From assembly GCF_000313135.1 (NCBI RefSeq), contig NW_004457429.1:19795-83794 (forward strand): DNA of 64,000 nt, written 5' to 3'. Origin of the DNA: Acanthamoeba castellanii str. Neff (taxonomy: Eukaryota; Discosea; Longamoebia; Acanthamoebidae). The notes under the pieces are model-generated. The model saw only the letters and a list, made by a program, of their open reading frames with translations, ran no database searches and was not told the DNA's origin. Positions 29,742-56,487 of the stretch are shown here, in pieces; the stretch's first letter is position 1; every line of letters starts with the position of its first letter. Both the position numbers and the translations under genes were made by a program.

Positions 29742-32700
29742 TCAGCTGTCGAACTGGGTGTAGTGGGTCGAGGAGGCAGCCAGCTTGTCCTTGCCCTTGC
29801 TCTTCTTGGCTGTCAGGTTGCCACGAAGGCCCTCCTCGATGTCGTGGTTGTTGCCGTGGTCAGCTTCGTTATTGTCCTCCTGACCGCCGAGGTAGTGCTC
29901 GCGAACATCCTGTCGGCTGGCGGCCCAGGTGTAGCTCTTCTTGGGCGGCGATGACCCGTCGCGGCTCTTCTTCATTCCTTCCCTGACCACCTGCGAGCCT
30001 TCCTTCTTCGCCTCGCCGTCCTCGTGCTCCAGGCCGTCGCCTTCGCTTTCGTGGTCGCTGGTCTCAAGGTGATGGTCACCGCCGTCGATGCCTTCGTCGT
30101 AGGGTCGTGCGGTCTGTACTGCGCCCAGCCGAGTGGCCGCGCGGCCGCGTTGTTGCGCGTTGTTGTTGTTCTTCTGTTTGGACGTCTTGTGCGCGCCCCT
30201 GAGGTCGCGCTCGGCGGCGAACAGGGCCTCGAGCGTCTTGACCACGGCCGACATGTCCGGCCTCTCCTCCGGCCTCGGGCTCCAGCACCTGGCCATCAGC
30301 TCGCCGAACGCCTGCACCGTCATTGTAAGGTGGCTACTACTAATAAACAAAATAATAATAATAAATTCTAGCAATTCATAGAAATCAAATGACGTACGCG
30401 AGGGCAGTGCGAGGGGACGGCGGGGCGGCCGCCCTGGAGGACGAAGGGCGGGATGTCCCACACGCGCGGGATGTCGGTGTAGGGCTCCCTGCGGGTGTAG
30501 AGCACCCACAGCATGACCCCGAACGAGTACACGTCGATCTTGGCCGAGTAGGGCACGCGCTCGAGGATCTCCGGCGCCATGTAGACCGGAGTGCCGAGCG
30601 CCGCAGTGTGGTTGTAGGGCTCCTGGGCCTGCGTGATCGAGCGCGACGTGCCAAAGTCGGCGATCTTGCACGCCACCGGCGCCTTGGCCGACAGCGAGAT
30701 GACGAGGAAGTTGTCCGGCTTGATGTCCCTGTGCAGCACTCCGTTCCTATTTGTTGGTTGTTAGTCGTTCGAACAAAATTAATAAGGCCAGGTCTAGGCT
30801 CGGGCGCAGATCAGAGGTGCCGGCGTACGTGTGGAGGAAGCTGAGGGCCTTGGCCATGTCCAGGGCGAACTTGAGCATCACCAAATAGTTGAACGGCCGG
30901 TCGGACAACACCACGTCGGCCACGCTGCCTGTGCAGTGGTGTGGGTGGTGAGCAACCCGAGTCTCTCAATGAATGATAGCCGAAGTGAAAGGTGGTTACC
31001 GTTTTCGCAGAGTTCGGTGACGAGGCAGGCCTTGTAGGGCACAACCGACGCCCCGATGAAGTGCAGCACGTACGGGCAGCGCAGGCGCATCATCAGGTCC
31101 ACCTCCCTGCGGAACTCCTCCATCTCCCGGGGATCCTCCTGGGAGTTGATGATCTTGGCCGCCACTTCCTGTCCTCTGTAAGTGGCCTTGTACACCGTAC
31201 CGAACGACCCCCGACCTGTACTTGATCTTAAGATGTGGTGTTGTGTCGTGTCGTGTGCGTGTGTGTCGTGTGTGTCGTGTGTGTCGTGTGTGTCGTGTGT
31301 GTCGTGTGTGTCGTGTGTGTCGTGTGTGTCGTGTGTGTCGTGTGTGTCGTGTGTGTCGTGTGCGTGTCTAAGAAAGTACCGATGGCGGGAGGCTTGGTGA
31401 TGATGTCGTCGGGGTCAAGCTTGTGCGACAGCTCGCCCACGAGCTTGATGGTGAACAGGTGCATGCCGAGACCCTCGACCTCGAACTTGATCTTGCGCTC
31501 GATGCTGGTCGTCATGTGCAGCGTCACGTACACGTGCACCATCGCGCTCTTGCCCTGCGGAGAGGCCACAACAGTTGGTCTCCATCGACGCTTTTCAACG
31601 GTTCAGGGAGAAGAAGAAGAAAAGGAGTATTCGAACCGTCTTGATGACACCGCTGCCCGGGTGCAGGCGGCAGCTGAATTTTTCGTTCTCGGCCGGCACG
31701 AAGAAGGTGAACTTGCGCGTGGGTCCTTTACCACGCATTGAAGAGTTAGCACGTGGGCATGGTATGCGTGGAATGTGAGGAGCGGGAGATACAAACCGTA
31801 GTTGGTGAGGGTGAGAATGTCGTGGAGCTCGTGCTCCACCGGCGATCGGTCGTTCGGGCCGAGACCGAAGGTGAGCACCTTGGGCGCGAACGAAATGTGC
31901 GCCGTCTCCAACTCATTGAGCGAGACCTCCCTTGACACCCTCCTGCTAAATGTGTGTGTGTGTGTGTGTGTGGTGTGAGCCTCTAACTGGTGCGGTGATG
32001 CATATAGCCTGGTGCGGGACGTACGATCCAGCGTAGGACGAGGAAGACGAAGACATATCACTCATTTCCGTGGCCTCGTCCATTTCGTCTTCTTCCGACC
32101 ACTGCTGGGCGAGGAGGAGCTGCTGCTCCTTCCTCTTGCGCCTGGCCAAGTAGAACAGGACCGCAGCCAGAAGGACGACGCACATGAGCACCAGCAGCAG
32201 CAGGCCGCCCACCCCGCCCACCACTCCGGCCACGATGGCTCCTGCGACAATGTAAAGAATGCGTCAGCACGTAAGCGACAGGTGAAGAGTTCAGAATGGA
32301 ATGGTACGCACCGGTCTGGGAGTCATCCGAGACGCACAGGCCATCCGCTGTGAAGGTGCCGCTCTTGCATTCTTGGCATTGTACGTAAAACAGTGAACAC
32401 AGGCGCGTTTTCGATTACCAATAAAAAAACAAACAAAATGGAGGTGTACCGGCCCCGAGGATGTTGATTCTGAACAGCGAAGAGCGGGTGGGACCGTGGT
32501 AGACCAGATCGTTCTCCGTCGGGTTGAATGCAAAGATCACCTGCGCGCCACAGCCGACGAGCAAAATAGTCAGACCAATTGGGGCGAGATGCTGGCTACC
32601 AGGGAAACATCACAGCTGTACCTTCACCAGCCCCGGGTCAATGGAGTGATCGTAGAGATCGGTGGTATCGATTCGCCTCGTGAAGCGGCACGTCGTAACG

Positions 32701-35700
32701 CCGTCAACATGCTCACCGGATACGTCAAACAAGTCTTGCCTTCCACCCAGTTCGACGTCGCTGCAAGTACCGCCACGAGTGAGACGTGAGGTGTGGCCAT
32801 ATATCACAGTAGAGCAGCAGCTGCAACTCGCGTACGTCTTCGGAGGACCCACGTCAAGGGCAAACATGTCGGTGATGCTGTACGAACCATTGTCGGTCCT
32901 GATGCAGTGTATGTTAGAACGAGCAAGGTTGTTCCTCATCCCTTTACGCGTGATGAGTACGAATAGACAAGATACGTGACATACCGGCGGCACATGTGAA
33001 TGTCGGCATTCTTCATGGTATTGGGGTCGGCCTTGAACCCGATCCCCACCCAACCCGAGTTGCGGCACTGTAGGCGGTCGTGTGCGTGTCGTGTGTGTGT
33101 CGTGTGTCATTCTTCAGGAGGACTACCAATTTTGTTGTGACGTAGGAATATGCAATAGTCTGTCGATTTACCTGGAGCATGATGTGGAGTCGGTTGTTGC
33201 TGCGGTCAACAGTCCATGAGAAGCGGTAGGCCGGTGAGAGGTCCATGAAGTGGGCGTACTCTCCTGCGTACGGGAAAAACTGATCGCCGACCCCTGCCAG
33301 AAGAACAAACCAGTGAGAAATCGAACGAACGTTTACCAGATAACTCGAGCAGCAGCGTGGCCAACGGCAGCGTACCCACTTGCGAGAGATAGCGAGACTG
33401 GAGCCAGAAGGTCTCGCCAGCGAAGGTCGCCCACGGTTTGACTCCGGTGTTGCGAGCAATGATGTCCATCAGCGTCTGTTGGCGCACGACCAGGTCGGAG
33501 TGGTCAGTAGCTCGAACGCAGCCACAGGCGCTACGACGAACCGAAGGTGCGTACCGTGTTGTAAATGAGCGCAAGCTCGTCGGGAGTGAACATTCCGGGC
33601 CGCTCGTACCAAAATCTGTCACCGTCCCGCATGCGCTCCAGCTGATGAACGGAAGTGAGCGAACAAGTCAGAGCTGAAAGGCTCAATCGAGAGGAAAAGC
33701 ACCTGACGAATGATTGCGTTGTGGAACAGCGGTCCCAGATTGGAGTAGGTGACCTTCTCTGTGCACACGAAAGAAACGTAAGAGACCACCAAGAGAAGGC
33801 AAGTCACTGGCGCACGTTACCCTCCAGCAGTCCGCCGACATAGGGATCCATGTGCTCAGGTCCAGAATAGAGTTCCTCCAGAATGGCCTGGAGGAGGCCG
33901 ACGCCAGGGTGAGCTAAACATGTGAGGCAAGGCCCAAGGAAAGTAAACGCACCCTTATCTCGCTGTCGCTGGTGAACTCTGCAAAGGTCGCCGGAGGGCT
34001 GCTCGTGAGATTGAGCGCCTGAGCACAACGTGATGACAATTCGGAGTGGTGAGAGCGCATACTTGGAAGTGCGAGGCAAGTAAGTAAACAAGTCAGGACC
34101 GCCGCACCCTGAGACATGCATTATAGCCGGGCAGGCCGTGGTCACGTCCCCGCTGGATGTTCGTCGCAGCCAAATCACCGCAGATCCCGACCGGCCACTG
34201 ATTCTGGTTGTAGATCGGCGTGCTGAACATGAAGTTACGGCTGTCGACAGACCCGAGAGATTTTAGTACTGGTGGTCAGTTCCTACATCCAAAGTGTGAT
34301 TGAGTTGTTATGCGTACACATCGGAGACGAATGATTCGTCGACCGCGCCCTGTGGTTGCACGAGAGAGCCACGAATGACCGAGTCATGCAGGCTGTTGTC
34401 CTCGGTGAGCGCCGGATCGCTGTAGCACAGTTATGATAACATAAAAAAAGAATGACAAGTTTAGTAAGTGAAACACACAGGAGACGGAACGGGAGTCATC
34501 ATATAGCGTACTAGAAAACCTCGCGCAACAGAAGGTTGCCGAAACCGGCTTCTTGGAAGTTCTCGTCGAGCAGTGGGATCACACTGTTGGCCTCGGAGTG
34601 ACCGTACCGCAACGCCGCTGCGCAGAAGAAATTGTCGACCGACGGATCCACGTCGGGGTTGTAACCTGTGCAATACAAGAAAGAGAAGACGTTGAGGCTG
34701 TTGGCCCATTTTTGGTGAGGCCCATGAGCCACTTTTCGCTTGTACCTTGGTAGGGCGACAAATATGTCCCGAGCTCCGCGGCCAGCCATTCCCTGGTCGA
34801 TATCTTCTGCCAGAAGGCGATCAGCCTTCAAAGACAAGAATTAGACCTGACACTATTACAATCGCCGGGGCGTATTTCGCAACTGCGGAACGGGTACCAT
34901 TTACGCGCCTGGATGAAGAGCATGTCTTCGGCCCACTCTGGGTTGGCCGCCCTGAATTCAGCGCACAGGCGATTGTGCTCCGAGCCCAAGACCTGGCATC
35001 GAGGAGTGGTTAACGTGGCGTTGCAAGAACGTAGATATCGACACAGAGAGGGAACGCACATCGGTGAGGGCGACCATATACGGAGTTTTGTTGGTGCGCT
35101 GGTCGCCACGCAACTTCATGATGTCAACGTTGGGGTTGACCTTGAAGGCAAACTGTGCGAGCGCCAATCAATTCAATGCCCTTCCGATCAAACACGTAGC
35201 AGCATTCAGACAACCGTACCACTTGGGTGAAGTTGAGCCAGAAATTGTTGTTGATCTCGCACCGAGGACCCGTACCGGTCATCTCACGCATGGGAAACCA
35301 AAGGGTGAGGTTGTCGGTCGGTCTACAAAAAAGCTCAGCCTCGTCAGTGCCACTGTCACAAGGTGCGGTGGGAGGCATAGTAACGCACCCGTAAAGGAAC
35401 GAAGCATCAATAAACGATGTGGTGTCGTGCATCTGCTCTCTCAGAACCTACCGACAGGGAATAGGGAAAGTTGAATGGTTACAAACCATCTAACAAGCAC
35501 TCTGCTGGGGGTAGTTGTCACGTACGTTGGGAGCGGTGTTGCCCTCGAAGGGATACGAGCGTCGGAAGTAGCACACTTCAGTCCCAGAAAGCGTCGGGTC
35601 GTAAAAAAGATCGCCTTGCGGCACTGGAATGTCCAAATTCTCCACGGGTGCCGGGTAGGATTGAGTGGCCGGGATGAACGGGGCTGCCTCTCCTGCACGC

Positions 35701-36562
35701 CATGCGTGAGGCCAGCCAACAAATCGTTGCGTCCCATCTGTGACGACTCAGAGCAGCAGCACGCCACGCAGGGAATGCCCAGGGGTCCTACCTCGAATGG
35801 TGTTACAGAGATCGGTCACGAGAACCTGGCCGTAGCTCGTCTGCAACTGGCTGGTCTGTCGCGTGTTGATTTCTGGAAGTCGCGCTGCATCAGTTGAACG
35901 AACACAGCCAGCAAGAGAGTCTCGTGAGGGGGCATGAAGTACTCGCGCGTCTGGCAAACAGTTTGTTGCTGATCACACGACCACTGGTTCCGTTTAATCT
36001 GCCAGATACAAAGTTTGGCGCTGAACACCTGCTACATGAAGAAGGTAAACGTCAAAGGAAGAGGAACGCACCTTGCCGGCTGACCCCAACCGTCGCCATA
36101 GGCCGCGGGTACATCCTCTGTTACATAAGACCGGTCATTAGTGATCGGTTTCAGCGTAGAAATCGTGGCGGAGACGTACGCCGCGTGTAGGGCCTGTACG
36201 AAGCGCCCCACTCGGTGTGGGCCAGGTTGTTGCCGTGGCCGCTGATGCTTCGCGTGCACTCGGGTGCGCTTCCGTAAACGCAGTCCAGCGGCGCCCCTCC
36301 GGTTTGTCCCCGCACTGGTGGGCGTGTGGGGAGGGGGGCAAGACCAGTCAGGAGCAGGTGTTAATGACCGGAGATGAGATTCCGGTTGAGGGAGACCGGT
36401 GTTGCCGCGGGGGCGGACTTGATCAAAGTTGACCTTGGCGTGGTGTTCACCAATAAAGCTCGACCCCCATGGGGAATAAAACGTACCCAACGAGAGACCG
36501 GAGACAGTGACGGCAATGAAGAAGATGACGAGGTGCAAGGGATCGGATTGCTTGGAGTACAT
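29742..36562 (-). CDS. Receptor kinase A: haem peroxidase-DOMON-TM-MSP-TKL kinase
   Basis: Paralogue A of three. The start at 36562 ([20 protein letters not shown]) is a signal sequence. The peroxidase begins with the family's [14 protein letters not shown], then [13 protein letters not shown] (distal region, His replaced by Thr), GDQRTNKTP (catalytic Arg kept), [10 protein letters not shown] and [10 protein letters not shown] (proximal His kept). DOMON-like exons lie at about 33.3-32.5 kb, the transmembrane helix at about 32.24-32.13 kb and the MSP-like domain (FGLGPND ... [14 protein letters not shown]) at 31.9-31.4 kb. The TKL kinase spans 31.2-30.25 kb with [16 protein letters not shown] and [10 protein letters not shown]. 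The long acidic/basic tail ends THYTQFDS. Many exons; not every join was closed. About 40-50% similar to B and C by eye, so it is the older copy. Confidence 0.82.
31242..31367. repeat. Intronic minisatellite, 9-bp unit GTGTGTCGT
   Basis: About 13 tandem copies lie in the intron between the MSP-like domain and the kinase glycine loop of receptor A. The core GTGTCGT also builds the repeats at 40556-40612 and (reverse complement) 50292-50452. Confidence 0.9.
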
Positions 36563-37114
36563 GGAGTGCCTGCGTTCCTTTGGCAGGATTAAGTTAGCGG
36601 TCGTTGGGTTGATTTGAACCCAGGCCTGATGGCAGAGGGGAGGTACCTCGATCAACTTCTCACGCTTGCAGTTTTGCAGTCGTTGTGTTGCTCGCACGGC
36701 AGCAGAAACAAACAAGAACACAGGCAGGTGGAGAACACAGTGCGCAGTGATTAGGATTAGAGGAAATAGACCTCCGGCCTACCGTTCGTTGCTGGACCGG
36801 CCACTCGGTTGGCGACACGTTTGCCGTTGGTTCACGTTCAACAGCCTGCGGAGTTACGGTGCCAATGGGAAGAGACACCTCCACCTCCAGCAAACTGCGT
36901 ACCTGGAAAAGCGACAAAGGCATCACGCCACTCGTCACACAGAGCACTCCGTAAGGTAATAGCCCGTACGGTAACATAGGCATCGACCAAACGTTGAGCA
37001 GGGCAAGAACAACTGTGGACGTTGCCTTGGCCCGGCCCTTTGTATTGTAGAAGTGGCGTAAGTCGGAATGGGTGGGGAGAGGGTGGAGAGATAGCGGGAG
37101 GGGGTTTTCTCTGC
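36563..37114. promoter_or_regulatory. Upstream region of receptor A
   Basis: 552 bp between the receptor A start and the SPCS1 stop, both on the minus strand. Open frames here show no likeness to the flanking genes. The region must contain the promoter and 5' UTR of receptor A; an upstream non-coding exon is possible. No motif recognised. Confidence 0.35.
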
Positions 37115-37824: not shown

Positions 37825-39880
37825 ATGGACAGCGCAGCCGAAGAGGTCGTGGGGGCCACGGTGGTCACGCGCGAGCTGCCGGTTTACCACATCGACCTGG
37901 ACCTGTGCTTGCCCATCTTCTTGATCAGATCTTTCGACTTTTAGGCTTTGATTAATCGGTTTCGGTGAGGTCTGCAGGCCGCCCCAGGAGCGGTGGCGCG
38001 TCGTGTGTGAGGACTACGCCCACCTTTTTCACAAGCTTGGGTACTGTGCACCACGCGCCAGTCAAAGTTGAGACTTGCGGCACTCACCCGCTGGGCGGAC
38101 CGGCAGGCAGTACGTCGATGACTCGGCGGTGGAGGACTTTGGCGCGACGCTGGGCAAGTCGCTGTTGAATGTGGTGTCGTGGACGCTGTCGTCGACGGGC
38201 AAGAGCGGCCTCACGCCCGAGCTCCATCAAGAGCTCGAGGGCATCTCCAAGTACTACTTACGCACCTCTGCCCCATGAGGTGGTCGATCATAGCAGCGAA
38301 CCGCTGAGCTCACTCAATTCGTAGATACTCTGGTCTGTCGATGGCAAAGCTGCTCCTGCTCAACATTGGCTACGACCTGCTCGCTCGGTGCACCTCCATC
38401 GTCTCCCAAACAACCGGTGCGCTCCTTTGTCCGCGTCGTTGTTGAGTGCCGGGGTGCTGAATGCCGCACGTGATCGTCAGACGGCCACCCGTTCCATCTG
38501 CGTACCTTGGACTGGGGCGAGGAGGGCTGCATTCTGCGCGAGCTCACGTTCGACGCCATTTTCACGCGGGGAGGCGTCGACCTCTTCCGCGCGACCACCC
38601 AGGCAGGCACAGAGTCCCTCACGCCACTCGCACCTTGGCCCTTCATCACCACCCACCACCTAATCCTCCTCACCCTTTTGTATGCAGGCTTTGTCGGGAT
38701 ATTCACTGGAATGCGCTACGTCGACGATCAAGATGGTACGTCATATAACTTTGGAATGTTAAAGAGTAATATGATATGTAGAAAGATATATATATATTTA
38801 ACTAACACTCATAGATAGCTTGCGATCTAACGGGTGCAGTTCACTGTCACGCGAACACTAGGCGGCTATAGCGTTTCGCTCAACTATCGGCAGGTGACGA
38901 ATTCGTCGGGCGCGGTGGCGTGGAACGCGTGGGGCCTGCTGACCCAGGCGTGGCCTCTCGGACCCATGCTGCGACACACCCTAGAGCACTACCCCTCCTA
39001 TCGGGAGGCCCTCGACTTCTTCACCACGGCGCGAATCGTGGCGCCGTGCTACCTCATCATCGCAGGCCTCAACCGGGACGAAGGGGCCTTGGTCACACGG
39101 GACCGGGATGGCGAAGTACAGCGAAAGGAACTCGGCTCCAGGTCCGCACTCCCTGCCTATGGACTGGGTTATGCACTTTTCTTGGGCGCTCACATGCTGA
39201 AGAACCGCTTTTTCCTTTGGCACAGTTGTGGTACGCTGGTGCAGACGAACCTCGACCATTGGCTCGACGCTGTGGACCCTGCGTGGGCTGGCGAGGACCG
39301 CCTTCTCCTGAGCTCCGTCGAGCGGCGAAACGCGGCCATGGAACTGTGCGTCTCATCATGCACAACCGCAAGGCCACGTGGTGCCATGAAAATGATCTGA
39401 CCACACTCTGGACTTATGGTCTGGGGCTGCAGGATGGACGAGCTACTGGCCTCCTGGGGCTCGGCGCCGTCGCACAGTGACGATGAAGAAGAAGAAGAAG
39501 GCAAGGGAGCGATAGGGTCCGTCGTCATTGATGGCCACGGCGTCGAGGTGGCGGCGGATCCGGATCGCGACTCGGGTGCGCGAAGCGAAGCGGCTGACGA
39601 CGAGGCGAGGCCTACGAGGGTGGTCGACGGAGAGGAGCTGGCGCGATGGATGCAAGTGCTGACCACGCCGCCGGTGCTCAACCCGGCCACGCTCTACACG
39701 ACCATCATGTCGGCCTCGCTCTCCCGGCGCTTGAACCCCGCCTCGACCGGCCCATCACCCATCCCCGACGATGATGATGATGATGAAGACGAAAAGGACG
39801 ACAGGCAGAAGAAGGAAGGAGACACCACCAGCAGGGGTGTCTACCTGAGTGTGGGTGTGAGCGTCCCCCACTGCTCGTGA
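37825..39880 (+). CDS. Acid ceramidase / NAAA-like amidase
   Basis: N-terminal-nucleophile hydrolase family that cleaves ceramides or N-acylethanolamines. The start at 37825 gives MDSAAEEVVGATVV..., then PVYHIDLDLPPQERWRVV, as in NAAA/ASAH1 alpha chains. The self-processing nucleophile is the Cys in YDLLARCTSIV (38370-38400). The beta chain continues with IHLRTLDWGEEGC, QAGFVGIFTGMR, TLGGYSVSLNYRQ and PCYLIIAGLNRDEG, followed by VQTNLDHW and PPVLNPATLYTTIMSA. An acidic, low-complexity insert (39470-39620) and an Asp/Glu-rich tail (39760-39880) are not typical of the family. There is no obvious signal peptide, which is odd for a lysosomal enzyme, so the start may be incomplete or the enzyme cytosolic. 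Confidence 0.87.
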
Positions 39881-40019
39881 GCTTTCGGCGCAGCTCCAAC
39901 GAATGAGAAAGTAGTGTACAGTGCGGGTGAGGGTTGACGTTGGAATGTGAAGCTTATCGTGGCCTGGCGAGTAAACGTTTGGCTGTATTACAACTCACAT
40001 CAACGCCTCACACGTCGCC

Positions 40020-40970
40020 ATGGCTCTTCCTCCGCGCTACATCGGTACCACCCCCACCGCCAGCAAATCTAATCTTGCACTCGACCTGAAGAATGAAGAG
40101 GGATTAATCAAAGCACATCGCTGCGCTCTCACCACTTAGGGCACCACTACAGCCACGACGCCGCTTTTGACCCGCGCAAGGGCGCCACGCTCGAAGTCTT
40201 CCTTGACCTCCACGTGCGTGCCCCCCCCCTTCACTTCCTCTGGTGCTTTTCCGCTGGTGCGGCAGCTTACCCAGGCCATGCGCTACGCGGCAGTGCCCGT
40301 TCTCGAAGAAGGCGCACTTCAAGCTGAAGGAGGTGGTGGCGCACTACGGCAAGGACAAGCTAGACGTCGTGTTCATCAACTGGATCCAGCCGTGGCACCC
40401 GCAGGCCACGTGGCTCCACTCGGCCCTGCTCGCTGCGTCGCTCTTTGACGACAAGTCCCTCTTCTGGAAGCTCGCCGACCTCCTCTACGAGAAGCAGGAC
40501 GAATGTAAACCAATTGGACCACCCACGCGCGCACATGTAACACACTACTGACGTGTGTGTGTCGTGTGTCGTGTGTCGTGTGTCGTGTGTCGTGCGTCGT
40601 GTGTCGTGTGCGTGTGTGCGGTACAGTCCGTGACGAGAAGGTGGAGAAGGTGAGCAAGGTGGAGTTCTACGACCTCATGACCACCTACGCCAAGGTACTC
40701 GCATATGCTCGCATAGGACTCAAACTCACCTTTGAGCTGACCGGCTTCTTCCGGCACAACCAGTCGGTCGGCATCGACGAGGAGCAGTTCCGTAAGAACC
40801 TGGCCAGCAACGAAGTCGTGCAGCTGATCAAGTGGGAGCAAAAGTACGGACGTCAGAACGGCATCCACGCCTCGCCCACATTCCTGGTGAACGGCCTTGT
40901 GGTGGGCCAGGCCTCATCCGGCTGGACCCTCGAGCAGTGGCGCGAGCTCCTCGACCCCCTCCTCGCCTAA
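40020..40970 (+). CDS. DsbA-like thioredoxin-fold protein (about 194 aa, 5 exons)
   Basis: Exons: 40020-40044, 40140-40213, 40294-40504, 40627-40694, 40764-40970 (the last start could also be 40737; both keep frame). The protein reads TLEVFLDLHCPFSKKAHFKL near residue 35, a DsbA/thioredoxin_4 fold with a C-P-F-S active site: one Cys, not CXXC. Helical insert KLADLLYEKQDE, then VGIDEEQFRKNLAS and the cis-Pro segment ASPTFLVNGL follow. With one Cys it would act as a monothiol redox or glutathione-type enzyme, or have lost redox activity; this is inference. No signal peptide. Confidence 0.82.
40556..40612. repeat. Intronic tandem repeat, 7-bp unit GTGTCGT
   Basis: About eight units of GTGTCGT with one variant (GTGCGTC) lie inside intron 3 of the DsbA-like gene, ending just before its acceptor. 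Same family as the repeats at 31242 and 50292. Confidence 0.9.
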
Positions 40971-41025
40971 TCCGCAGTACCGGCCCAGAGTCAATTAAAA
41001 GCTACGACGCTCTTCATTTGTCCGT

Positions 41026-42780: not shown

Positions 42781-45700
42781 CTAGATGCCGCCGGTGTGGT
42801 TGCGCTTGTCCTTCTTCTGCTTGCCCTTCTTGTTCGAGTCCGAATCCGAGTCCGAGCTGAAGTCGATCTGCAAGCCGGCGAAAAGCGGTCAGATCTCGGC
42901 CAAGCGCCTACACAGACTGCCAAGGTAGGTGGTAAGGTTACCTTTTTGGCCTGGCCATCTTCGTCGTCGTCAACGAGACCCTTACGTCCGCCCTCCCAGG
43001 TGCGCGCGCCGACGCGCTCCTCCTCTTCCTCCTCGAAGCCGCGTGCGGTCTGGGCACGGTCGGAGGGCTTGGCCTTCTTGCCGCCGCGCTCCGAGTCGTC
43101 GCGCTGGCCCTTGAGCGCCTTCTCCTCCTCGAACAGCTTCTCGAGCAGCGTCACCACCTCGGCCATCGTCAGCCTGCCCACCCATCACTTCAGTGAGAAA
43201 GCGAAAGCGAAGACGAAGGCGAAGACCAACAAAAGCGAAAGCGAGAGCGAGAGCGAGAGCGAAGACGAAGACTAAAGAGAGATCTCGTACCGGTCGTCGG
43301 GGTCGTGCGCCCAGCACTGGCTCATGAGGCTGCTGAAGGCATCGGGGCAGTGGTCGGGGACGGTGGGGCGGTTGCCCTTGATGACGTACTTGGGGATGTC
43401 CCACTGCCGCTTGAGCTCCGTGTAGGGCTCCCTCCGCGTGTAGAGCACCCACAGCATGACCCCGAACGAGTACACATCGATCTTGGCCGAGTAGGGCTTG
43501 TGCTCGAGGATCTCCGGCGCCATGTAGATGGGCGTGCCCAGCGCCGCCGTGTGGTTGAAGGCCTCCTGGGCCTGCGTGATCGAGCGCGACGTGCCAAAGT
43601 CGGCGATCTTGCACGACACCGGCGCCTTGGCCGACAGCGAGATGATGAGGAAGTTGTCCGGCTTGATGTCCCTGTGCAGCACTCCGTTCCTATTTTGTGT
43701 GTTGTTAGTGTCGTGTGTGTCGTCCGCGTTGTGAGCGTCGTTGTGTGTGTGTGTGTGTGTGTGTGTGGTGTTAGGGCTTGTGGCGCCAACAGAGATCGGA
43801 GGCGTACGTGTGGAGGAAGGAGATGGCCTTGGCCATGTCCAGCGCCACCTTCAGCATCAGCAGGTAATTGAAGTTCTTGTCGGAGAACACGACGTCCGAC
43901 ACGGAGCCGTGGGTGCAGATCTCGGTGACCAGACAGGTCTTGCCGGGCACGAACGAGGCGCCGACAAAGTTGAGCACATAGGGACACCTCAGCCGCGTCA
44001 TGATGTCCACCTCCCTGCACGACGTTCATCATACATTCACCACCATCAGCACCACAGGAACTGCATTGGCTGTGGCAGCCAAGAAAGAAGAGAGAGAAAA
44101 GGGGGCAAGGGAAGCGAACTTTTGGAACTCGGCCAGCTGGCGCCTGTCCATCTGCGAGTTGAGCACCTTGGCCGCCACCTCCTGGCCCCGGTAGTTGGCC
44201 TTGTACACCGTTCCGAACGATCCTTGCCCTGTACGTGCGTGCGTGCGTGTGTTATTTCAGTCATCGTGTTGTCGACAACAACCACGACTGTGTCGTGCGC
44301 ACACGGATTGCGTGAAGACAGAAAGTGTACCGATGGGCGGGTTGGTGGTGATGATGTCGTCGGGATCGAGCTTGGTGGACAGCTCGCCCACGAGCTTGAT
44401 CGTGATCAGGTGCGACCCGAGGCCCTCCACGTCGAACTTGATCTTGCGCTCGATGTTGGTCGTCATGAGCAGCGTCACGTGCACGTGCACCGTCACGCTC
44501 TTGCCCGACTTGATCACGCCCGAGCCCGGGTGCAGCCGGCACGCGAACTTGTCGTTCTCCGTCGGCACGAAGAACGTGAACCGCCGCGCCGGTCCGTGGT
44601 TGGTGAGCACGATCTCATCGCTCACCTCCTCGTCCACTGGGCACTTGTCGTTCGACCCCAGCCCGAACGTCAGCACCTGAACGTGTGTCGTGGTAGTGTC
44701 GTGTGGGTTGGTCGTGTGAGCGCCAAACGTACAACCACAGACCACTGGCTTGGTGCGGGTCAAACCTTGGGCTCGAAGGTGATGTTGACTGACTCGAGGT
44801 CCATCAGCGACAGCTGCTTGCCCAGCAGAGTGGAGCTGCGGACCGACGCACTCGATGAGGCGGAGGACTCGGACATGTCGTCCATCTCGATCGATGCCTC
44901 GTCGTCCGACCACTCCTCGGCCAGCAGCAGCTGTGCCTCCTTCTTCTTCCGCCGCGCCAGAAGCAGCAGCACGATGGCCAGCAGCACCAGCAGGATGAGA
45001 CACAGCAGCAGCGCGCCGCCCACGCCGCCCACCACGCCGCCGATGATGGCTGCCGTGTCGTCCGACGAGCAGTCCGACCCGAGGCACGTGTTGAGCAGGT
45101 TGAGCCGCGCCGCCGACGAGCGCGTGGGTCCGTGGTAGACCAGCTCGTTCTCGGTCGGGTTGAAGGCGAAGATCACCTTGTTGAGGCCCTCCGTGATGGT
45201 CTTGTCCCACGGATCCTCTGTCGAGATCCGCCTGTTGTGTGTGTGTCATCGCACCCACTCACCGGTCAGCACGCGCACCACCGCGCACACGCACACACGC
45301 ACAAGCGCGGGAGAGGGCGCACTTGGAGAAGCGGCAAGTGACCACGCCGCCCTCGTACTCGGCCGATGTGTCGAACAGGTTGTTGCTTCCGCCGCTCAGG
45401 GTCTGATCGCGCGTGGGCGGACCCACGTCGAGCGCGTAGGCGTCGATGAACTCCCACGTGTCGTTGGCCCACCGCCGGCAGATGTGGATGTCGGCGTTCT
45501 TCATCGTGGCCTCGTCGGCATCGAATCCCACCCCCACCCAACCGCTGTTCCGGCACTGTTTCGTTGTGTGTGTCCGTGGGTGTCGTGTCGTGAGGCAGTT
45601 GTGGTTGGAGCGCATGGCACACACCGCAATGGCGTCTCGACAGACAGATAGAGCGGAGGCACGAACGAACCTGGATCATCATGCGGATGGCGTTGTTGGC

Positions 45701-48700
45701 CTTGTCGGGCGTCCACGACAGGCGGTACGCCGGCGACAGGTCGACAAAGTTATCATATTCGTCTGAGTTCCTGAAGAACTGGTCTCCGCCTGCAATGTGT
45801 GCGCGTTCATTGCAGCACGGGGTCAGGACTAAAAAGAAAAGCGGCACTGAGGGAGGGGAGGCGGCGGACCGATGTTGGCGAGGTAGCGCTGCTGGAGGAA
45901 GAACGTTTCACCGGGGGTGGAACCCCACTCGGTGACGTTCATGTTGCGCGAGATGATGTCCATGAGGGTCTGTGCGCAGCCGACGACGCGGTAAGCAATC
46001 AAGGAATTCCAATCATGATGAGAGGAAAAATGCGGTGGTGTTCATCAAAGAGAGGCGTACGGTGTTGTGGACGATGGCGAGCTCGGCCGGGGAGAACATG
46101 CCCTTGCGCTCGTACCAGAACCGATCGCCGTTGCGCAGCCGCTCGAACTGTGTAGATTGAGCAGGGTGGTTTTGGGTGAACAGCGATATTATGCGAAGCG
46201 CGGGTGCTAAGACGAACCTGGTCAAGAATGACGGTGCGGAACAGCTCACCGACGCTGGCTCCGATCACGTGGCCTGTAATTGATAACCCCGACACGAGCG
46301 CGGTGAGTGGAGACTCTGTGGGCGAAGTGCAGGAAATGCACGGCGTGCGGGCGAGATGGTGTGTGGACGCACTCTCGATGAGTCCGCCGACGTAGGGGTC
46401 CAGCATGTCGATGCCGTCGGGGCCGTAGAGGTCCGCCAGAATGGCCTGGATCTCGGTGTCCGGGGTAAGCTCGGCCCAGGAGTTGTACGTGGGCAGGCCG
46501 AGTAGCTCGCGCGCTCGGTTGTAGCTCGGCATGCCGTGGTCGCTGCAATATATGAATTGGCCGTCAAAAAGAGGTGAGTGATCCCACAAACTCGAACTCG
46601 ACCACAAGCTGTGCAGAGCGAAGAAAGGCAGAGTACCGAGCACGCTGGATGTTGGTGGCGGGCAAATCACCGCAGATGACCTCCTCACCAGGATTGGTAA
46701 ACTAGAACAATAAAAAACGAATCATCAGCTACCACATAAGTCAAACCATCAGCGGGGGAGAGGGGTGACATGTACCTGATTCCACGTGGGGGTGGAGAAC
46801 ATGTAGTTGCGCAAGTCGTCGACAAAGGAGGTGTCGACCAGGCCTTGCCTCTGCACCGTGAGACCGCGCAGCAGATCCTCGATCATGCCCGGCGTCTCGT
46901 CGATCTTCTTCGTCTGGCTGCACTCATTCACAGGGAGTGGGGTGAGGATCACAGAGGCAAAGAGGAGGAGGGGTTGCGCTCACGTACAAATACCAGTCGC
47001 GGACGAGGATGTTGCCGATGGCGCTTTGCTTGTATTCATCATCGGCCAAGAACACCTGCGAGTTCACCATGGAGTGGCCGTAGCGCATGGCCACCGAGCA
47101 GAAGAAGTTCTCAATGCCCGCGTCCACTGTCGGATCATAGCCATCTGATCGCACACACGCCCCACACGACACACACACACACACACAGGGAGTTAATGTT
47201 AGCGGGTTGATCCTTCTCTGTCCGGTGTGCAGGCGTCTTTTTTTTCGTACTTTGGCCGTAGTAGGTGGAGTTGAGAGGCACGCCCATGTCCGCCGCCAGC
47301 CACTCTCTTGTCGTGATCTTCTGCAGGAACGCGATGATCCACTTGCGGGCCTCTTCGAAGAGCCGGTCCTGGGTCCATTCGGGGTGAGCGGCCTCGAACT
47401 CGTCGCACAGTCGGTTGTGCTCGAGGCCGAACACCTCGGTGAGGGCGATGAGATCGGGCGTCTTGTTGGTGCGCAGGTCGCCCCGCCGCTTCCAAATGGC
47501 CGTGCCGTCGAGGGTCTCCGGAATGAACGTCAAACCGAGCTCGGAAGGAGGGAACCAGTAGGAGTTGTTGAGCTTGCACGCATGGCCGCCGTCTGTACGG
47601 GCGACGTCAGCGGTTGGCCCCTTGTTAACTTTTAATTATCAGCGCCCAATGGGGAGACTCGAGCAGGGCACGTACCCTGACGGATCTCCTCGTAGACGAA
47701 CTTGGCGAATGGATTCGGGGCATGTCCCGTCGAGCTGAGCAGCGATGAGGCAAGCCTTGTCAGTCATTTGGAGGGGAGGGAAAAGACGGGAAAGAATGAA
47801 AAGCGATAAAGAACGAAAGGGGTACCCGTAGAGCCACGAGCCGTCGAGCCAACCGGTGATGTCGTGGAACTGGTGCCGCAACCCAAACTGGTTGAGGGCA
47901 GGAAAGCCGGGGGACCGATCCAGGGGACATGTCAGGTTCGCGTCGGCGTTCGGATTGTAGAAGATATCGTCTGCCAAAACAAACAGCACACAAAGAAGAG
48001 CAAGCGCCAAACAAGTCCCCAAGTGCCGATACACAAAAGCCGGAGAACATAGGGTTAGAAGCCGAGCAGCAGCAAACATAGAGCAAACAGAGCTGTCTGT
48101 CTATGATGCGACCAGGGTACATACCCTGGGGAATGGGGATGCTGAACTTCTCCCTATGGTAGGTGGTATTGGGCGCCCACAGGAACGGGAACTCTTCCAA
48201 CTGGAGCCCTGGGCAATCGCACGCCCGCCAAACGTGTGATGCAGGGTCAATCCCGGGAGACACAGTGGAAGAACTCAGGGCAAGAGAGTACCTCGCAAGG
48301 TGTTGCAGATGTCGAGCACAGTGAGCTGGCCCCAGATCGTTTGCAGGTCGTTCGTGAGGCTCGGATTGGCCCCTGCCCATGAATGACGAGCGCGTGGAGT
48401 GGTGAGCCACGGTGGTGTGCCCCTGGCGTAGTGCGACAACATGGCCGCCGTGAGATAAACACGGTTGTACCGGGGAGGCGGGCGAAGAGCTTGTTGCTGA
48501 TCAACCGGGCGCTGGTGCCGTTGTGTCGGGCCGGCAGGTGGGTGACCGGATCGTCGTACTCTTGCGGGATCAGATCTGCGGGCAAGGGCAGTGTCAGCAC
48601 TGTGGTGAGTGTGTGGGAGAGGGAGCAAAGCACGTACGGTGAATGAAGGTCGCGAAAGCCATTCCCATCCTGGGGTTCGTCAGACTGTTGTTGCTACCTG

Positions 48701-49044
48701 TGCGTGGTCGTCGTGGACACCACCAGGTGTGGCCAAAGATGGCACACAGCCAAAACGCACATCGGTTAAAAATTTGAAAAATGAGTGGCCAAAATAGTGC
48801 GAAATTACTGAAATATTTCGCTTGGCGCGTTCCCTTTTTTCGTCGCTGGGAAGAGAGGAAGAGAAGAGGAAGAGAGGAGACACGAACCATCAGGCTGGCG
48901 AGTGAGGTTGAACGTGGTCCCGTATTCGCCCTCGAGACCAGCGTCCACGGCCCGGCCGGGGCAAGCCAGGAGGGCCAGCAAGAGTGCCAACAAGACCACA
49001 ACCACGCGCGACGAAGACAACGTTGAAGAGAAGCGGTTTTTCAT
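42781..49044 (-). CDS. Receptor kinase B: haem peroxidase-DOMON-TM-MSP-TKL kinase
   Basis: The left arm of an inverted pair with receptor C. The start at 49044 gives [20 protein letters not shown], a signal peptide. Peroxidase motifs: [20 protein letters not shown] (distal His replaced by Leu), [16 protein letters not shown] (Arg kept), [21 protein letters not shown] (proximal His), [14 protein letters not shown] and [19 protein letters not shown] at 45.8-45.2 kb ([19 protein letters not shown]); transmembrane helix at 45.05-44.94 kb; RRKKKEAQ stop-transfer; Ser/Asp-rich juxtamembrane; MSP-like at 44.67-44.34 kb. The kinase spans 44.23-43.16 kb with [31 protein letters not shown] and DFGTSR. 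Acidic tail, then [11 protein letters not shown]. The substrate and ligand are unknown; peroxide, haem or a redox-modified ligand is possible. Confidence 0.87.
43195..43274. repeat. Degenerate hexamer repeat in an intron of receptor B
   Basis: Tandem GCGAAA / GCGAGA / AGACGAAG units fill most of the intron between the last two kinase exons. Receptor C has only a few such units (CTCTCGCTGCG) in the matching intron. Confidence 0.8.
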
Positions 49045-49668: not shown

Positions 49669-51487
49669 ATGGCGCTTACGCGAGGCGTTCGCGAGAGCGA
49701 CCTGGGTCTGCCCAAGGCCGTGCCATCGATTTGCATCTTCATCTTGTTCTCGGCTCTGCTTTCCGCGTGCAGGGCCGATGTGCAGTCCATCGACCCGGGA
49801 CTGCAGGGAGAGTATGGCTCCACACCAGAACTCACCCGCCACCCCACCGGTACTTGCTTTTTTTAATTTCCTTGTTATTTTTATTTATATTTGTCTTATA
49901 TATAATTACTCATATTTTTGGTTGCTATCACTCTTTTGTTTTTTATTTATTCTTTTTTAATTAGATCGCTGCGACCATCTTTTTCCCTTCCTTTATTTAT
50001 TTATTTATATTTTTATTTTTCGGGTATTACGCATAAAATTCGGACGCTGTTTGCCATTTTAGCTCCGAGGAGGCGGAGGCTCCGATCGAGAAAGTTGTGA
50101 ATGGGGCTTCTGCTTCTGCGCACCAACGCCTTCTTCTTCATGTTGTCCAGGCGCTAACGTGAGCGAACTGAACGGCGCCATCAACTCCCTCTTCGCGCCA
50201 TTCAGAGCTGGTACGTGGCTTTGTGCGCACCAGGCCTCGCTGTGACCCTTCGGAATTATCCGTGTCACACGGCCGAGATCACAACGCGCTTACACACACG
50301 ACACACGACACACGACACACGACACACGACACACGACACACGACACACGACACACGACACACGACACACGACACACGACACACGACACACGACACACGAC
50401 ACACGACACACGACACACGACACACGACACACGACACACGACACACGACACACGCACCGCAGTGCTGGTACCACACGCCTACACGGACGACCTGGAGGCG
50501 CCGCCGAGAATAGACGGACCGAGCGCCCGAAACATCAGCAACAAGCTCTTCTCCCGCCTCCCTGGTACGTACGATTGTTTGCGATCGGCGTTGGTGGTGT
50601 GACCGACAAGCGAGCTAACCACGGATACGCGCGATGATCACTGAACAGGAAACAACCCGCTGCTCACGAACGATCTGCAAACGATCTGGGGCCAGCTCAC
50701 CGTGCTCGACATCTGCAACACCGTGCGAGGTACTGCTTGCCCCTCCCTCAATCAAGATACTCACACTAATTGCAGCTATATAGCCTGAGTGACCCCTTTT
50801 AACTCCTGTTTGCTCCTCTTGACGGTCTCAAGGAATTCAACTGCGTGATGCCTATCCATTCCTGATCGCGCCTGCCAATTACACGCTCGAACAGTTGGGC
50901 ATTCCCATTCCAGTCGGTACCGACCTCGCTTTCCTTTCCTGTGCGTGCGTGCATGTGTGCTGGATCACCGAGATGTGCGTCACCTTATGACGTATGTGGT
51001 GGTGTGGTGGTTTGTTTTTGTTGATTAGATGATCTGTTCTACAACCCCACGGCGAACGAGTCGCTCAAGTGCCCGCTGCAGCGGTCGGCTCCCCACCCGT
51101 CGGCCTACCCCTTCAACCCCACCGCGCAGCGCAACCAGTTCATGGACATCACCGGCTGGCTCGACGCCTCGTGGCTCTACGGGTACGAGCACGGGTCCCT
51201 CTCCCTTTAAAACAACAATTTAGTTCCGTGACTGACTCACGAAACGTGCGCGCGCCTGCAGTTCGGTCGGTTGGGACCCGCATGCCAAGTTCACCTACAA
51301 CGAGGTTCGCGCCAAGAATGGTACTGACGCCCGGCCTCACGACACACCACTGTGGCTCTTCTGAAGACCCCTCCCCGGCCCATTGCCGGGCACTACAACA
51401 GGCGCGGGAGACTACACGTGTAAGCTCAACAACTCGTACTGGTTCTTCCCCCATGAGGTACACATCTCACTCGTGCGCTCGTCTACG

Positions 51488-51581
<94 letters not shown>

Positions 51582-54500
51582 TCCCTCGAACGGTACTAAG
51601 CCTGAGCGATTTTTTTGTGCAGCTCGAGCTGACGTTCATCCCGGAGACGACGCAAAACATCGCCATTTGGAAGCGGCGGGGCGACCTGCGCACCAACAAG
51701 ACGCCCGATCTCATCGCCCTCACCGAGGTGTTCGGCCTCGAGCACAACCGACTGTGCGACGAGTTCGAGGCCGCTCACCCCGAATGGACCCAGGACCGGC
51801 TCTTCGAAGAGGCTCGCAAGTGGATCATCGCATTCATGCAGAAGATCACGACGAGAGAGTGGCTGGCGGCAGACATGGGCGTGCCTCTCAACTCCACCTA
51901 CTACGGCCAAGGTACGCTCATCTCAACTCCTTCATGAACAAGAACGAAAGCGAAGACTCACCACTTCTTCTTCTTCCTTCTTTCTTCTTTCTTCGTTGAT
52001 GCAGTCGGCTATGATCCGACGGTGGACGCGGGCATTGAGAACTTCTTCTGCTCGGTGGCCATGCGCTACGGTCATTCAGAGGTAAACTCGCAGGTGTTCT
52101 TGGCCGACGACGACTACAAGCAGAGCTCCATCGGCAACATCCTCGTCCGCGACTGGTATTTGTACGTCAACCCCTCCTCCTCCCCCACCTTGCCTTCGCA
52201 TTCCTCTTCACCACGTTATTCGCTCACCCACCCCCTGTGAATGAGTGCAGCCAGACGAAGAAGATCGACGAGACGCCGGGCATGATCGAGGATCTGCTGC
52301 GCGGTCTCACGGTGCAGAGGCAAGGCCTGGTCGACACCTCCTTTGTCGACGACTTGCGCAACTACATGTTCTCCACTCCGACCTGGAATCAGGTGCGTCA
52401 CAGTCCTCCGATTCGTTGCTGTCGATCCGCACACTCACTGTTGAGTGTTTTGGTTTACGCCACGCCTTAGTTTTCCAATCCCGGACCGGACTTCCTGTGC
52501 GGCGATCTGCCGGCCACCAACATCCAGCGTGCCAGGGATCACGGCATGCCAGACTACAATGCGGCGCGGGTGCAGCTCGGCCTGACGCCCATCACGACAT
52601 GGACCGACCTCACCAACGACACCGAAGTCGTCGTACGTCTGATTTCACGAGCTTTCGTTTTTCAGAGATACAAAGAGGCATTGACCTGACCACTGAACAG
52701 CAAATCCTGGCGGAGCTCTACCCTGGCGGCGTTGGCACGCTGGATCCCTACGTCGGCGGACTCTTCGAAGGTACGGCCACCATCCACACAGCAGGAGGAA
52801 TGCCAAGCGCGTGGCCGGCCATGTTTCTCACATTCCACCACCCAAACCCAACATACAGTGCACGTCACTGGCGCGCACGTTGGCGAGCTCTTCCACAAGG
52901 TCATCATGGATCAGGTGCGCAGCTTTTTGTCCCCCCCCCACGGTCCTGCTCGTATCGCTTCCACACGCACATATGCTCAAATCGCTTCGATTTTTTGCAC
53001 AGTTCGAGCGGCTGCGCAACGGCGATCGGTTCTGGTACGAGCGCAAGGGCATGTTCACCCCGGCCGAGCTCGCCATCGTCCACAACACCGTACGCCTCTC
53101 TTCCCTTCTTTCTTGGAACTCCCTCTTGCACACGCCCCACTCTCCTCCTCCCCTCTGCTGACCCCACTGCTTCGGTCGCGCTCATCAGACGATCATGGAC
53201 ATCATCTCGCGCAACATGAACGTCACCAAGTGGGGTTCCACCCCCGGTGAGTCGTTCTTCCTCCAGCAGCGCTACCTCGCCAACATCGGTCCGCTCGCCC
53301 CTTTCTATTGCTGCTCCGTTAGCTCCTACCGGTGGGCTGACCCACGGCTGTGCGTGCGTGCGGGCATTCTGATCGATTGCAGGCGGAGACCAGTTCTTCA
53401 GGAACTCGGACGAATATGATAACTTTGTCGACCTGTCGCCGGCGTACCGCCTGTCGTGGACTCCCGACAAGGCCAACAACGCCATCCGCATGATGATCCA
53501 GGTACGTCCCCGCCTCCGCTCTACCTGTCTGTCGTGCCGCCATTGCGGTGTGTGCCATGCGCTCCAACCACAACTGACTCACGACACGACACACACGATA
53601 CGACACACACAACGAAACAGTGCCGGAACAGCGGTTGGGTGGGGGTGGGATTCGATGCCGACGAGGCCACGATGAAGAACGCCGACATCCACATCTGCCG
53701 GCGGTGGGCCAACGACACGTGGGAGTTCATCGACGCCTACGCGCTCGACGTGGGTCCGCCCACGCGCGATCAGACCCTGAGCGGCGGAAGCAACAACCTG
53801 TTCGACACATCGGCCGAGTACGAGGGCGGCGTGGTCACTTGTCGCTTCTCCAAGTGCGCCTCCCCTCTTGGTCGGGAGTAAGTGTGTCCTGTGTGTGCGA
53901 TGGTGCGCGTGCTGACCGGTGAGTGGGGTGCGATTACGGCGCACACACCACGAACGCAGGCGGATCTCGACAGAAGATCCGTGGGACAAGACCATCACGG
54001 AGGGCCTCAACAAGGTGATCTTCGCCTTCAACCCGACCGAGAACGAGCTGGTCTACCACGGACCCACGCGCTCGTCGGCGGCGCGGCTCAACCTGCTCAA
54101 CACGTGCCTCGGGTCGGACTGCTCGTCGGACGACACGGCAGCCATCATCGGCGGCGTGGTGGGCGGCGTGGGCGGCGCGCTGCTGCTGTGTCTCATCCTG
54201 CTGGTGCTGCTGGCCATCGTGCTGCTGCTTCTGGCGCGTCGGAAGAAGAAGGAGGCGCAGCTGCTGCTGGCCGAGGAGTGGTCGGACGACGAGGCATCGA
54301 TCGAGATGGACGACATGTCCGAGTCCTCCGCCTCATCGAGTGCGTCGGTCCGCAGCTCCGCTCTGCTGGGCAAGCAGCTGTCGCTGATGGACCTCGAGTC
54401 AGTCAACCTCACCTTCGAGCCCAAGGTTCGCCCCTCACCAAGCACCCAATTCGCCCAATGCTCATTGATCCACTGATTCACACAACACACAACACATACA

Positions 54501-56487
54501 ACGCACACAACGCACAACGCACACAACACACAACACCCGGCACACGGCGCAGGTGCTGACGTTCGGGCTGGGGTCGAACGACAAGTGCCCGGTGGACGAG
54601 GAGGTGAGCGATGAGATCGTGCTCACCAACCACGGGCCGGCGCGGCGGTTCACGTTCTTCGTGCCGACGGAGAACGACAAGTTCGCGTGCCGGCTGCACC
54701 CGGGCTCGGGCGTGATCAAGTCGGGCAAGAGCGTGACGGTGCACGTGCACGTGACGCTGCTCATGACGACCAACATCGAGCGCAAGATCAAGTTCGACGT
54801 GGAGGGCCTCGGGTCGCACCTGATCACGATCAAGCTCGTGGGCGAGCTGTCCACCAAGCTCGATCCCGACGACATCATCACCACCAACCCGCCCATCGGT
54901 ACTCCTCCTCCTCCTCCTGCCTTCTCATCGTCGCTTTGTCCATCACCTCCCTCTCTCCACTTGCCGGCGAGTCCGTGTGTGCACACGACACCGTTGTCGA
55001 CAACACGATGACTGAAATAACACACGCACGCGCGCGCGCACGTACAGGGCAAGGATCGTTCGGAACGGTGTACAAGGCCAACTATCGGGGCCAGGAGGTG
55101 GCGGCCAAGGTGCTCAACTCGCAGATGGACAGGCGCCAGCTGGCCGAGTTCCAAAAGTTCGCTTCCCTTGCCCCCTTTTCTCTCTCTTCTTTTCTTGGCT
55201 GCCACAGCCAATGCCGTTCCTGTGGTGCTGATGGTGGTGAATGTATGATGAACGTCGTGCAGGGAGGTGGACATCATGACGCGGCTGAGGTGTCCCTATG
55301 TGCTCAACTTTGTCGGCGCCTCGTTCGTGCCCGGCAAGACCTGCCTCGTCACCGAACTGTGTACCCACGGCTCCGTGTCGGACGTCGTGTTCTCGGAGCA
55401 GAACTTCAATTACCTGCTGATGCTGAAGGTGGCGCTGGACATGGCCAAGGCCATCTCCTTCCTCCACACGTACGCCTCCTGTCTCTTTTTGCCTTGCCCC
55501 CGTCCCTGTCTCTTGACTTCTTGCCTTGTTCGCGCCACTTGGGCTCAACGCACACGACGCTCACGACACCGAACAACAACAACGAACAAATAGGAACGGA
55601 GTGCTGCACAGGGACATCAAGCCGGACAACTTCCTCATCGTCTCGCTGTCGGCCAAGGCGCCGGTGTCGTGCAAGATCGCCGACTTTGGCACGTCGCGCT
55701 CGATCACGCAGGCCCAGGAGGCCTTCAACCACACGGCGGCGCTGGGCACGCCCATCTACATGGCGCCGGAGATCCTCGAGCACAAGCCCTACTCAGCCAA
55801 GATCGATGTGTACTCGTTCGGGGTCATGCTGTGGGTGCTCTACACGCGGAGGGAGCCCTACACGGAGCTCAAGCGGCAGTGGGACATCCCCAAGTACGTC
55901 ATCAAGGGCAACCGCCCCACCGTCCCCGACCACTGCCCCGAGCCCCTGCGCGAGCTTTTCAACCAGTGCTGGACTCACGACCCCCGCGATCGGTACGCCG
56001 TTTCGCTCTCGCTGCGTGTGCCTGTGTGCGTGTGTCGCTGACGAGAGCGCTCACAACGGCGTAGGCTGGATATGAGCGAGGTGGTGACGCTGCTCGAGAA
56101 GCTGTTCGAGGAGGAGAAGGCGCTCAAGGGCCAGCGCAATGAAGCCGAGCGCGGCGGTAGGAAGGCCCGCGCCTCAGGCAGGGCACAGACTGCGCGTGGC
56201 TTCGACGAGGAAGAGGAGGAGCGCGTGGGTGCGCGCACCTGGGAGGGTGGTCGAAAGGGTCTCGTCGACGACGACGCCGCCAACCAAAAACACGACGTAC
56301 GATCTCTTCACTTTTCGCTCTTTGGTTTATCGCTTCGTTCTTTTTTCTCAAGTGCGTGAACGGTTGCCTGTCGATGCAGGTGGAGGTGAGCTCCTCTTCG
56401 GACTCTGGCTCGGACTCAGACTTCGCGCCGAGCAACAAGAAGGGCAAGCAGAAGAAGGACAAGCGCAACCACACCGGCGGCATCTAG
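49669..56487 (+). CDS. Receptor kinase C: haem peroxidase-DOMON-TM-MSP-TKL kinase
   Basis: Start at 49669 (MALTRGVRESDLGL..., hydrophobic ICIFILFSALLSA): signal peptide. Peroxidase 50151-53260: [27 protein letters not shown] (no distal His), [75 protein letters not shown] 53395-53960. One exon (53960-54425) carries the DOMON end, transmembrane helix ([18 protein letters not shown]) and juxtamembrane. MSP-like 54553-54898. The first Gly of the kinase loop is split by an intron (54898/55048), so MSP and kinase are in one protein. Kinase to about 56100: [27 protein letters not shown]. The acidic and then Lys-rich tail ends NHTGGI. By motif it is TKL-type; Tyr or Ser/Thr specificity is not decided. 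Confidence 0.88.
50292..50452. repeat. Intronic minisatellite, 7-bp unit CACACGA
   Basis: About 23 nearly perfect tandem copies between exons 2 and 3 of receptor C. Being 7 bp, the unit stays open in several frames on both strands and produces false Thr-His-Asp or Cys-Arg-Val ORFs. Confidence 0.95.
51489..51580. repeat. Intronic (ATG)n trinucleotide repeat
   Basis: About 31 uninterrupted ATG/GAT units in the receptor C intron just before the LELTFIPETT exon. The matching place in receptor B has no such run. The purity of the run indicates recent expansion. Confidence 0.95.

Follow-up and report, generated by a model that had tools for sequence, protein, structure and literature searches.

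The three neighbouring genes considered here (A, B and C) raise two questions: whether a peroxidase-like domain, a DOMON domain and a kinase are really parts of one protein, and what such a receptor might sense. They lie in a 64,000-nt stretch of the Acanthamoeba castellanii str. Neff genome (GCF_000313135.1, contig NW_004457429.1, 19,795-83,794 forward), which is referred to below as the window and to which all coordinates apply. For genes A and C we found the domain order signal peptide, An_peroxidase, DOMON, hydrophobic helix, Ser/Asp-rich juxtamembrane stretch, beta-sandwich resembling a HYDIN-type Ig domain, and TKL-type kinase. The domains of gene B were assigned by alignment to C, to which it is 85.7% identical; the Pfam scan covered A and C. 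Judging from residues that have been lost and kept, the peroxidase-DOMON ectodomain is likely to be a haem-binding, non-enzymatic sensor which would switch on the TKL-type kinase.

For the gene models, a codon table was first taken from gene C, read by hand, before the splice sites were anchored manually. In these DNA models all introns of A, B and C are GT-AG and there are no internal stops (n = 0); A is 57.7% identical to B and 58.2% identical to C at the protein level. All three were reconstructed as single open genes, and Pfam and hydropathy support the domain order which a preliminary description of this locus had proposed for them. It should be noted that A, B and C were read here from DNA alone and that C alone of the three had an annotated counterpart in the protein search (P0001, a 1346-aa Neff protein with 100% identity to gene C across 791 compared residues), as might be expected if gene prediction had wrongly joined separate peroxidase-DOMON and kinase genes. 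However, a single C exon (53960-54425) covers the end of DOMON, the membrane helix and the juxtamembrane stretch, and the first Gly of the C kinase loop is split by the intron between sandwich and kinase, both as the preliminary description had stated. Besides P0001, the fusion is present in an environmental protein of 1332 aa from a 4850-bp contig (P0003, available as protein letters only) and in a 950-aa Stereomyxa protein whose start is cut (P0021, MMETSP0439); in both, the peroxidase, DOMON and kinase domains are carried by a single chain. Stereomyxa ramosa has been placed in Amoebozoa, and MMETSP records come from a transcriptome project. The receptor genes also reach beyond the window, with a fourth gene of the same order on contig C133 (L015; automatic model of 1260 aa, peroxidase exons likely missing), so that four gene copies on two contigs of the genome have the fusion. 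A joining artefact is therefore extremely improbable, and we rejected a reading with two separate transcripts because the C exon runs from DOMON to the juxtamembrane stretch and P0021 and P0003 are fused. Chance assembly of the domains is disfavoured by the Pfam E-values given below and by the same order in P0003, P0021 and the fourth gene. The blocks belong to one protein in each gene.

Nine further proteins (P0005-P0012 and P0022; P0009 and P0010 without a start) join An_peroxidase and DOMON to 7TM_3, and are referred to together with the kinases as receptors. One of these, P0007, carries the label MMETSP0151, which we take to be a Paramoeba. The An_peroxidase matches had Pfam E-values of 1.6e-108 (A) and 3.8e-106 (C), and in a comparison of the predicted structure of the peroxidase part the matches were filled by peroxidases. 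The distal motif GQxxDHD includes an Asp that forms an ester bond as well as the catalytic His, the distal Arg and a second ester acid lie in RxxE, and the proximal His is bonded to Asn (PMC4420034, in the sections used here). By alignment, all 12 receptors which cover these positions (A, B and C, P0003, and eight of the 7TM proteins) have lost the distal His and the ester Asp; P0002, P0010 and P0021 have no coverage of the distal motif. The fourth gene, which stands outside the residue table, reads WGQLIVLDV, GDLRTNK and RYGHSQV and has also lost the distal His; P0001 was left out of the table as the same protein as C. Both distal residues are present in 18/18 other retrieved An_peroxidase proteins, which, having been retrieved with these receptors as queries, are closely related to them and do not sample the superfamily as a whole (one retrieval search scored the 7993 candidates with the most shared words). 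The second ester acid (Glu of RxxE) is Lys in 14/14 covering receptors, and the distal Arg and the proximal His are each kept in 14/14. The term "haem peroxidase" used previously thus holds for the fold and fails in its enzymatic sense, as the distal His and both haem-ester acids are lost.

The peroxidase domain is non-canonical, and probably also non-catalytic; an active peroxidase was rejected because the distal motif lacks its catalytic His. It is also very unlikely that the ectodomain generates the receptor's signal as an enzyme of some other kind, such as a slow peroxidase, a dioxygenase or a catalase-like protein. The fold, the distal Arg and the proximal His/Asn are largely retained, and alpha-dioxygenases have the same fold in the structure comparison, but the catalytic His of GQxxDHD (motif from PMC4420034) is missing in 13/13 covering receptors and the residue replacing it varies (L, T, A, S, V, M and I), so that no alternative acid-base residue is evident.

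DOMON was matched with Pfam E-values of 8.6e-24 (A) and 1.4e-20 (C). Some DOMON domains bind haem or sugar, and Met286 and His379 of CG8399 are predicted haem ligands through alignment to the CDH cytochrome (PMC10691727, in the part used here). By alignment, 15/15 receptors have the TMK Met and the YHGPTR His, and so does the fourth gene; the Met-to-His spacing of 93 in C (671/764) is the same as in CG8399 (286/379; PMC10691727). These receptor residues also align with the secreted-type DOMON of L029 and the second DOMON of the multispan protein L030, both from the same genome. Comparison of a DOMON profile to the PDB gave a single match, dopamine beta-hydroxylase (E = 0.033), and no CDH alignment; the ligand positions therefore rest on the receptor and same-genome alignments and on that part of PMC10691727. 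The expected DOMON haem ligands are thus kept, and the domain may bind haem. Two further DOMON loci, on contigs C49 and C227, were rejected as receptors of this kind and model as a DOMON-only and a DOMON-multispan protein. The haem or sugar binding of some DOMON domains (PMC10691727) would also fit an ectodomain which captures or reports haem or iron, with bound haem as the ligand and not a fixed cofactor, and with both ester acids lost the haem would be non-covalent and perhaps exchangeable. Sequence data do not separate fixed from exchangeable haem, and we regard haem as the ligand as rather improbable.

Genes B and C have diverged unevenly. Their exons 17-23, which run from where the peroxidase block ends to the middle of the kinase, are 95-100% identical, with a synonymous divergence (dS) of 0.02-0.07 from DOMON to kinase; among these exons four of the six introns are 59-75% identical and two are 92-99% identical. 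Within the peroxidase domain, exons 12-14 reach an identity of 57-79%. The pattern suggests that the signalling half has been homogenised, largely within exons, while the sensor half has diverged. The dS of 0.48 in the peroxidase domain, compared to 0.02-0.03 over the stretch from DOMON to the HYDIN-like domain, is what a ligand-facing domain might show, and is consistent with a haem-free pseudoenzyme which binds a protein, glycan or bacterial surface ligand, the kinase reporting contact. The missing distal His and the two missing ester acids would agree with this, as would the peroxinectins of the same superfamily, which function in cell adhesion (PMC4420034, in the sections used here). However, the proximal His, the distal Arg and the DOMON ligands are found in every covering receptor despite an ectodomain identity of roughly 35%, and Duox, which is called inactive, has no proximal His (PMC4420034). 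We consider a haem-free ectodomain unlikely, although it deserves to be weighed. Retention of the proximal His, distal Arg and DOMON Met/His while the distal His is lost is the basis on which we favour a haem-bearing sensor.

A sensor role, which had been proposed in the preliminary description, is further supported by the nine other proteins that carry the same ectodomain on 7TM_3. A tree was computed from 31 peroxidase domains with the distal-motif columns removed and with P0016, P0018 and the fourth gene left out; in it the 15 receptors lie on one side of a branch (support 100/100) and the six kinases on one side of another (100/99); the 7TM proteins were not resolved as a single group and P0021 was on a long branch. 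Four of the 7TM proteins (P0006, P0008, P0011 and P0022) form a subgroup with >300 extra N-terminal residues before the peroxidase domain. A search for class C G protein-coupled receptors gave 0 7TM_3 matches in the A. castellanii genome, in agreement with the statement in the part of PMC4053784 used here that this organism has no metabotropic glutamate-like receptors. On contig C48 of the same genome, gene L027 carries the same transmembrane-juxtamembrane-sandwich-kinase module under PBP_like_2 (1.1e-32, two stretches). The ectodomain behaves as a swappable input unit, since it is joined to either a kinase or 7TM_3 and the module carries PBP-like domains elsewhere.

On the signalling side, hydropathy (the only basis for signal peptide and helix) shows a hydrophobic stretch at the N-terminus of A, B and C and a single strong one between the DOMON and the kinase of each. 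The kinases matched PK_Tyr_Ser-Thr (Pfam E-values of 5.5e-53 for A and 1.5e-54 for C), their motifs including APE are intact in all three genes, and in the comparison to the PDB an EGFR entry was the top match, followed by CTR1 and TAK1. The predicted signal peptide, single predicted helix, intact motifs and TKL similarity are those of a TKL receptor kinase. The sandwich domain had been named MSP-like, but this name was rejected: in C, MSP (Motile_Sperm) scored 13 bits against a cut-off of 25.9, with an E-value of 0.095 compared to 8.9e-5 for HYDIN-type Ig (0.0054 in A), and the PDB profile gave HYDIN at 6.4e-7, with no single stretch passing alone, and VAP at 0.024. The scores for PF22544 (17.4 bits in A, 23.1 in C and 25.0 in P0003) were all under the cut-off of 25.5, and the domain is best described as closer to HYDIN-type Ig than to MSP. 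Another HYDIN-like match, on contig C59, is a weak lead: it lies where the sequence partly reads N, and the model there is rough and has no peroxidase domain. Before the catalytic loop of the C kinase there are two in-frame acceptors 18 bases apart (55594-55611). P0001 lacks NGVLHR before DIKPDN, and hence the HR of HRD, while the gene C model has the six residues; P0003 and P0021 carry residues matching NGVLHR, and a similar acceptor pair is found in the C133 gene. The residues missing from P0001 would reflect either an error in annotation or alternative splicing, and the latter would be expected to disable the kinase.

If the ectodomain is a haem-bearing sensor, a five-coordinate haem b could be bound in the peroxidase domain through the proximal His, its distal side being open and mostly non-polar, and DOMON could hold a second haem on Met and His. 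The usual helper of O-O cleavage being absent, the open side would suit redox reporting or the binding of nitric oxide (NO), carbon monoxide or peroxide. The trigger might be a small oxidant or gas that binds (NO, or peroxide without turnover) or a change in the redox state of the haem; the packing or dimerisation of the ectodomain would then be altered, bringing two kinases together across the single helix, so that the Ser-rich juxtamembrane stretch and Ser/Thr targets downstream would be phosphorylated. With kinase motifs intact, such ligand-driven pairing and phosphorylation would be the simplest output; the HYDIN-like domain could be a rigid spacer or a docking site. In the H-NOX of A. castellanii, a missing distal residue has been taken to favour NO over oxygen signalling (PMC4053784, in the part used here).

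Several points weigh against this scheme. Haem binding, ligand and kinase activity are all candidate properties predicted from sequence, and Duox is a described case of a membrane peroxidase-like domain which persists without peroxidase activity (PMC4420034, in the sections used here). The proximal Asn is found in 13/15 receptors and is Asp in P0009 and P0010, and the distal Gln is kept in the four covering kinases and replaced in 6/8 covering 7TM proteins, so that the pockets of the two classes differ. P0021 starts after the proximal His and was counted as non-covering at that position. The structure comparison covered the peroxidase part, with DOMON outside its reach, and for the sandwich and kinase a predicted structure (P0021) had a mean pLDDT of 42.8 and no confident fold.

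Among described systems, the architecture is closest to, but differs from, Duox, CYBDOM and TKL receptors. Duox (Family 7 of the peroxidase-cyclooxygenase superfamily) is without the proximal His (PMC4420034, in the sections used here), whereas the receptors keep it and lose the distal His; the output of Duox is an NADPH oxidase, whereas the receptors have a TKL-type kinase and a DOMON beside the peroxidase fold, and no oxidase family was among the Pfam matches of A and C. CYBDOM proteins (for example CG8399/SDR2) and the CDH cytochrome domain share with the receptors an extracellular DOMON with assigned Met and His ligands, but the CYBDOM output is b561 electron transfer, in place of which the receptors have a kinase or 7TM_3, with a pseudo-peroxidase before DOMON. 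TKL kinases (Raf/TAK1/CTR1-like) are alike in the kinase match to CTR1 and TAK1 and in the one predicted helix; the amoeba receptors differ in their ectodomain and HYDIN-like spacer, and no such ectodomain was met among the open-licence matches listed. The peroxidase-DOMON-7TM_3 proteins have the same ectodomain family and lie on the receptor side of the tree, with 7TM replacing the single helix and kinase. Another animal-type peroxidase of the same genome (L016, contig C207) is fused to a cytochrome P450 and has no DOMON or kinase, and its translation, read by eye, keeps a His in the matching motif (EFLVHD). A peroxidase-P450 arrangement has been reported for fungal linoleate diol synthases (PMC4420034, in the sections used here). 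Among the matches listed from the open-licence literature, compared by title and start of abstract, there was no description of the kinase architecture, in line with the preliminary description, to which no described receptor with this order was known, and no published description of the 7TM_3 proteins was met among the open-licence matches listed. In the main text of PMC4053784, "peroxidase", "receptor kinase" and "DOMON" have 0 occurrences.

The coordinates of the receptor genes, their domains and neighbouring genes are listed in Table 1. The window also contains a catalase gene and, next to gene A, an acyl-CoA ligase-like gene; a predicted protein between A and B may be two genes. For the repetitive protein at the end of the window there was no Pfam match at 1e-5 within the 578 residues scanned.

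Table 1 Receptor genes, their predicted domains and neighbouring genes in the window.
Feature	Positions	Strand	Details and basis
Gene A, receptor-like kinase	29742..36562	-	33 exons, 1387 aa; models and Pfam
A An_peroxidase	33440..36252	-	residues 47-568; Pfam; distal motif; proximal RYGHSE
A DOMON	32481..33231	-	about residues 611-745; Pfam; includes TMKNAD, YHGPTR
A hydrophobic (transmembrane) stretch	32135..32318	-	residues 766-803; hydropathy; basic residues next
A HYDIN-like Ig	31429..31926	-	about residues 846-960; Pfam and PDB profile
A TKL-type kinase	30231..31386	-	residues 975-1225; Pfam
Gene B, receptor-like kinase	42781..49044	-	24 exons, 1335 aa; models
B peroxidase domain including distal motif	45928..48653	-	alignment to C
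B DOMON	45114..45730	-	alignment to C
B hydrophobic (transmembrane) stretch	44940..45059	-	residues 779-818; hydropathy
B HYDIN-like Ig	44380..44819	-	alignment to C
B kinase domain	43146..44346	-	alignment to C
Gene C, receptor-like kinase	49669..56487	+	25 exons, 1352 aa; models
C An_peroxidase	50201..53230	+	residues 78-594; Pfam, structure comparison
C Leu134 at distal-histidine position	50705..50707	+	GQxxDHD reads GQLTVLD; motif from PMC4420034, in the sections used
C His379, proximal haem-ligand position	52073..52075	+	RYGHSE; alignment
C DOMON	53442..54077	+	about residues 634-770; Pfam
C Met671, DOMON haem-ligand position	53672..53674	+	alignment; PMC10691727, in the part used
C His764 (YHGPTR), DOMON haem-ligand position	54057..54059	+	alignment; PMC10691727, in the part used
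C hydrophobic (transmembrane) stretch	54132..54251	+	residues 789-828; hydropathy
C basic and Ser/Asp-rich juxtamembrane stretch	54252..54371	+	translation
C HYDIN-like Ig	54372..54849	+	residues 869-985; Pfam and PDB profile
C TKL-type kinase	54883..56092	+	residues 997-1249; Pfam and PDB comparison
Catalase gene	1820-6282	-	Pfam 9.8e-161
AMP-binding (acyl-CoA ligase-like) gene	27189-29687	+	adjoins gene A
Predicted protein, thioredoxin/DsbA-like C-terminal part	37825-40970	+	between A and B
Repetitive secreted-looking protein, then hydrophobic stretch	about 60000-63661	-	rough model

Taken more widely, these proteins may form a receptor superfamily in which an extracellular two-haem sensor of NO, peroxide or redox state is mounted on TKL kinases in amoebae and on class C 7TM in other protists, a proposal which we put forward tentatively. 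If true, a fold of secreted defence peroxidases would have become a cell-surface haem sensor through loss of its catalytic residues, and one sensor ectodomain would have served two unrelated transducers. The peroxidase-like domain of dual oxidase, the function of which is called obscure (PMC4420034, in the sections used here), could then naturally be compared to these receptors, which would also offer a testable answer to how free-living amoebae might sense oxidants or NO from their prey and surroundings.

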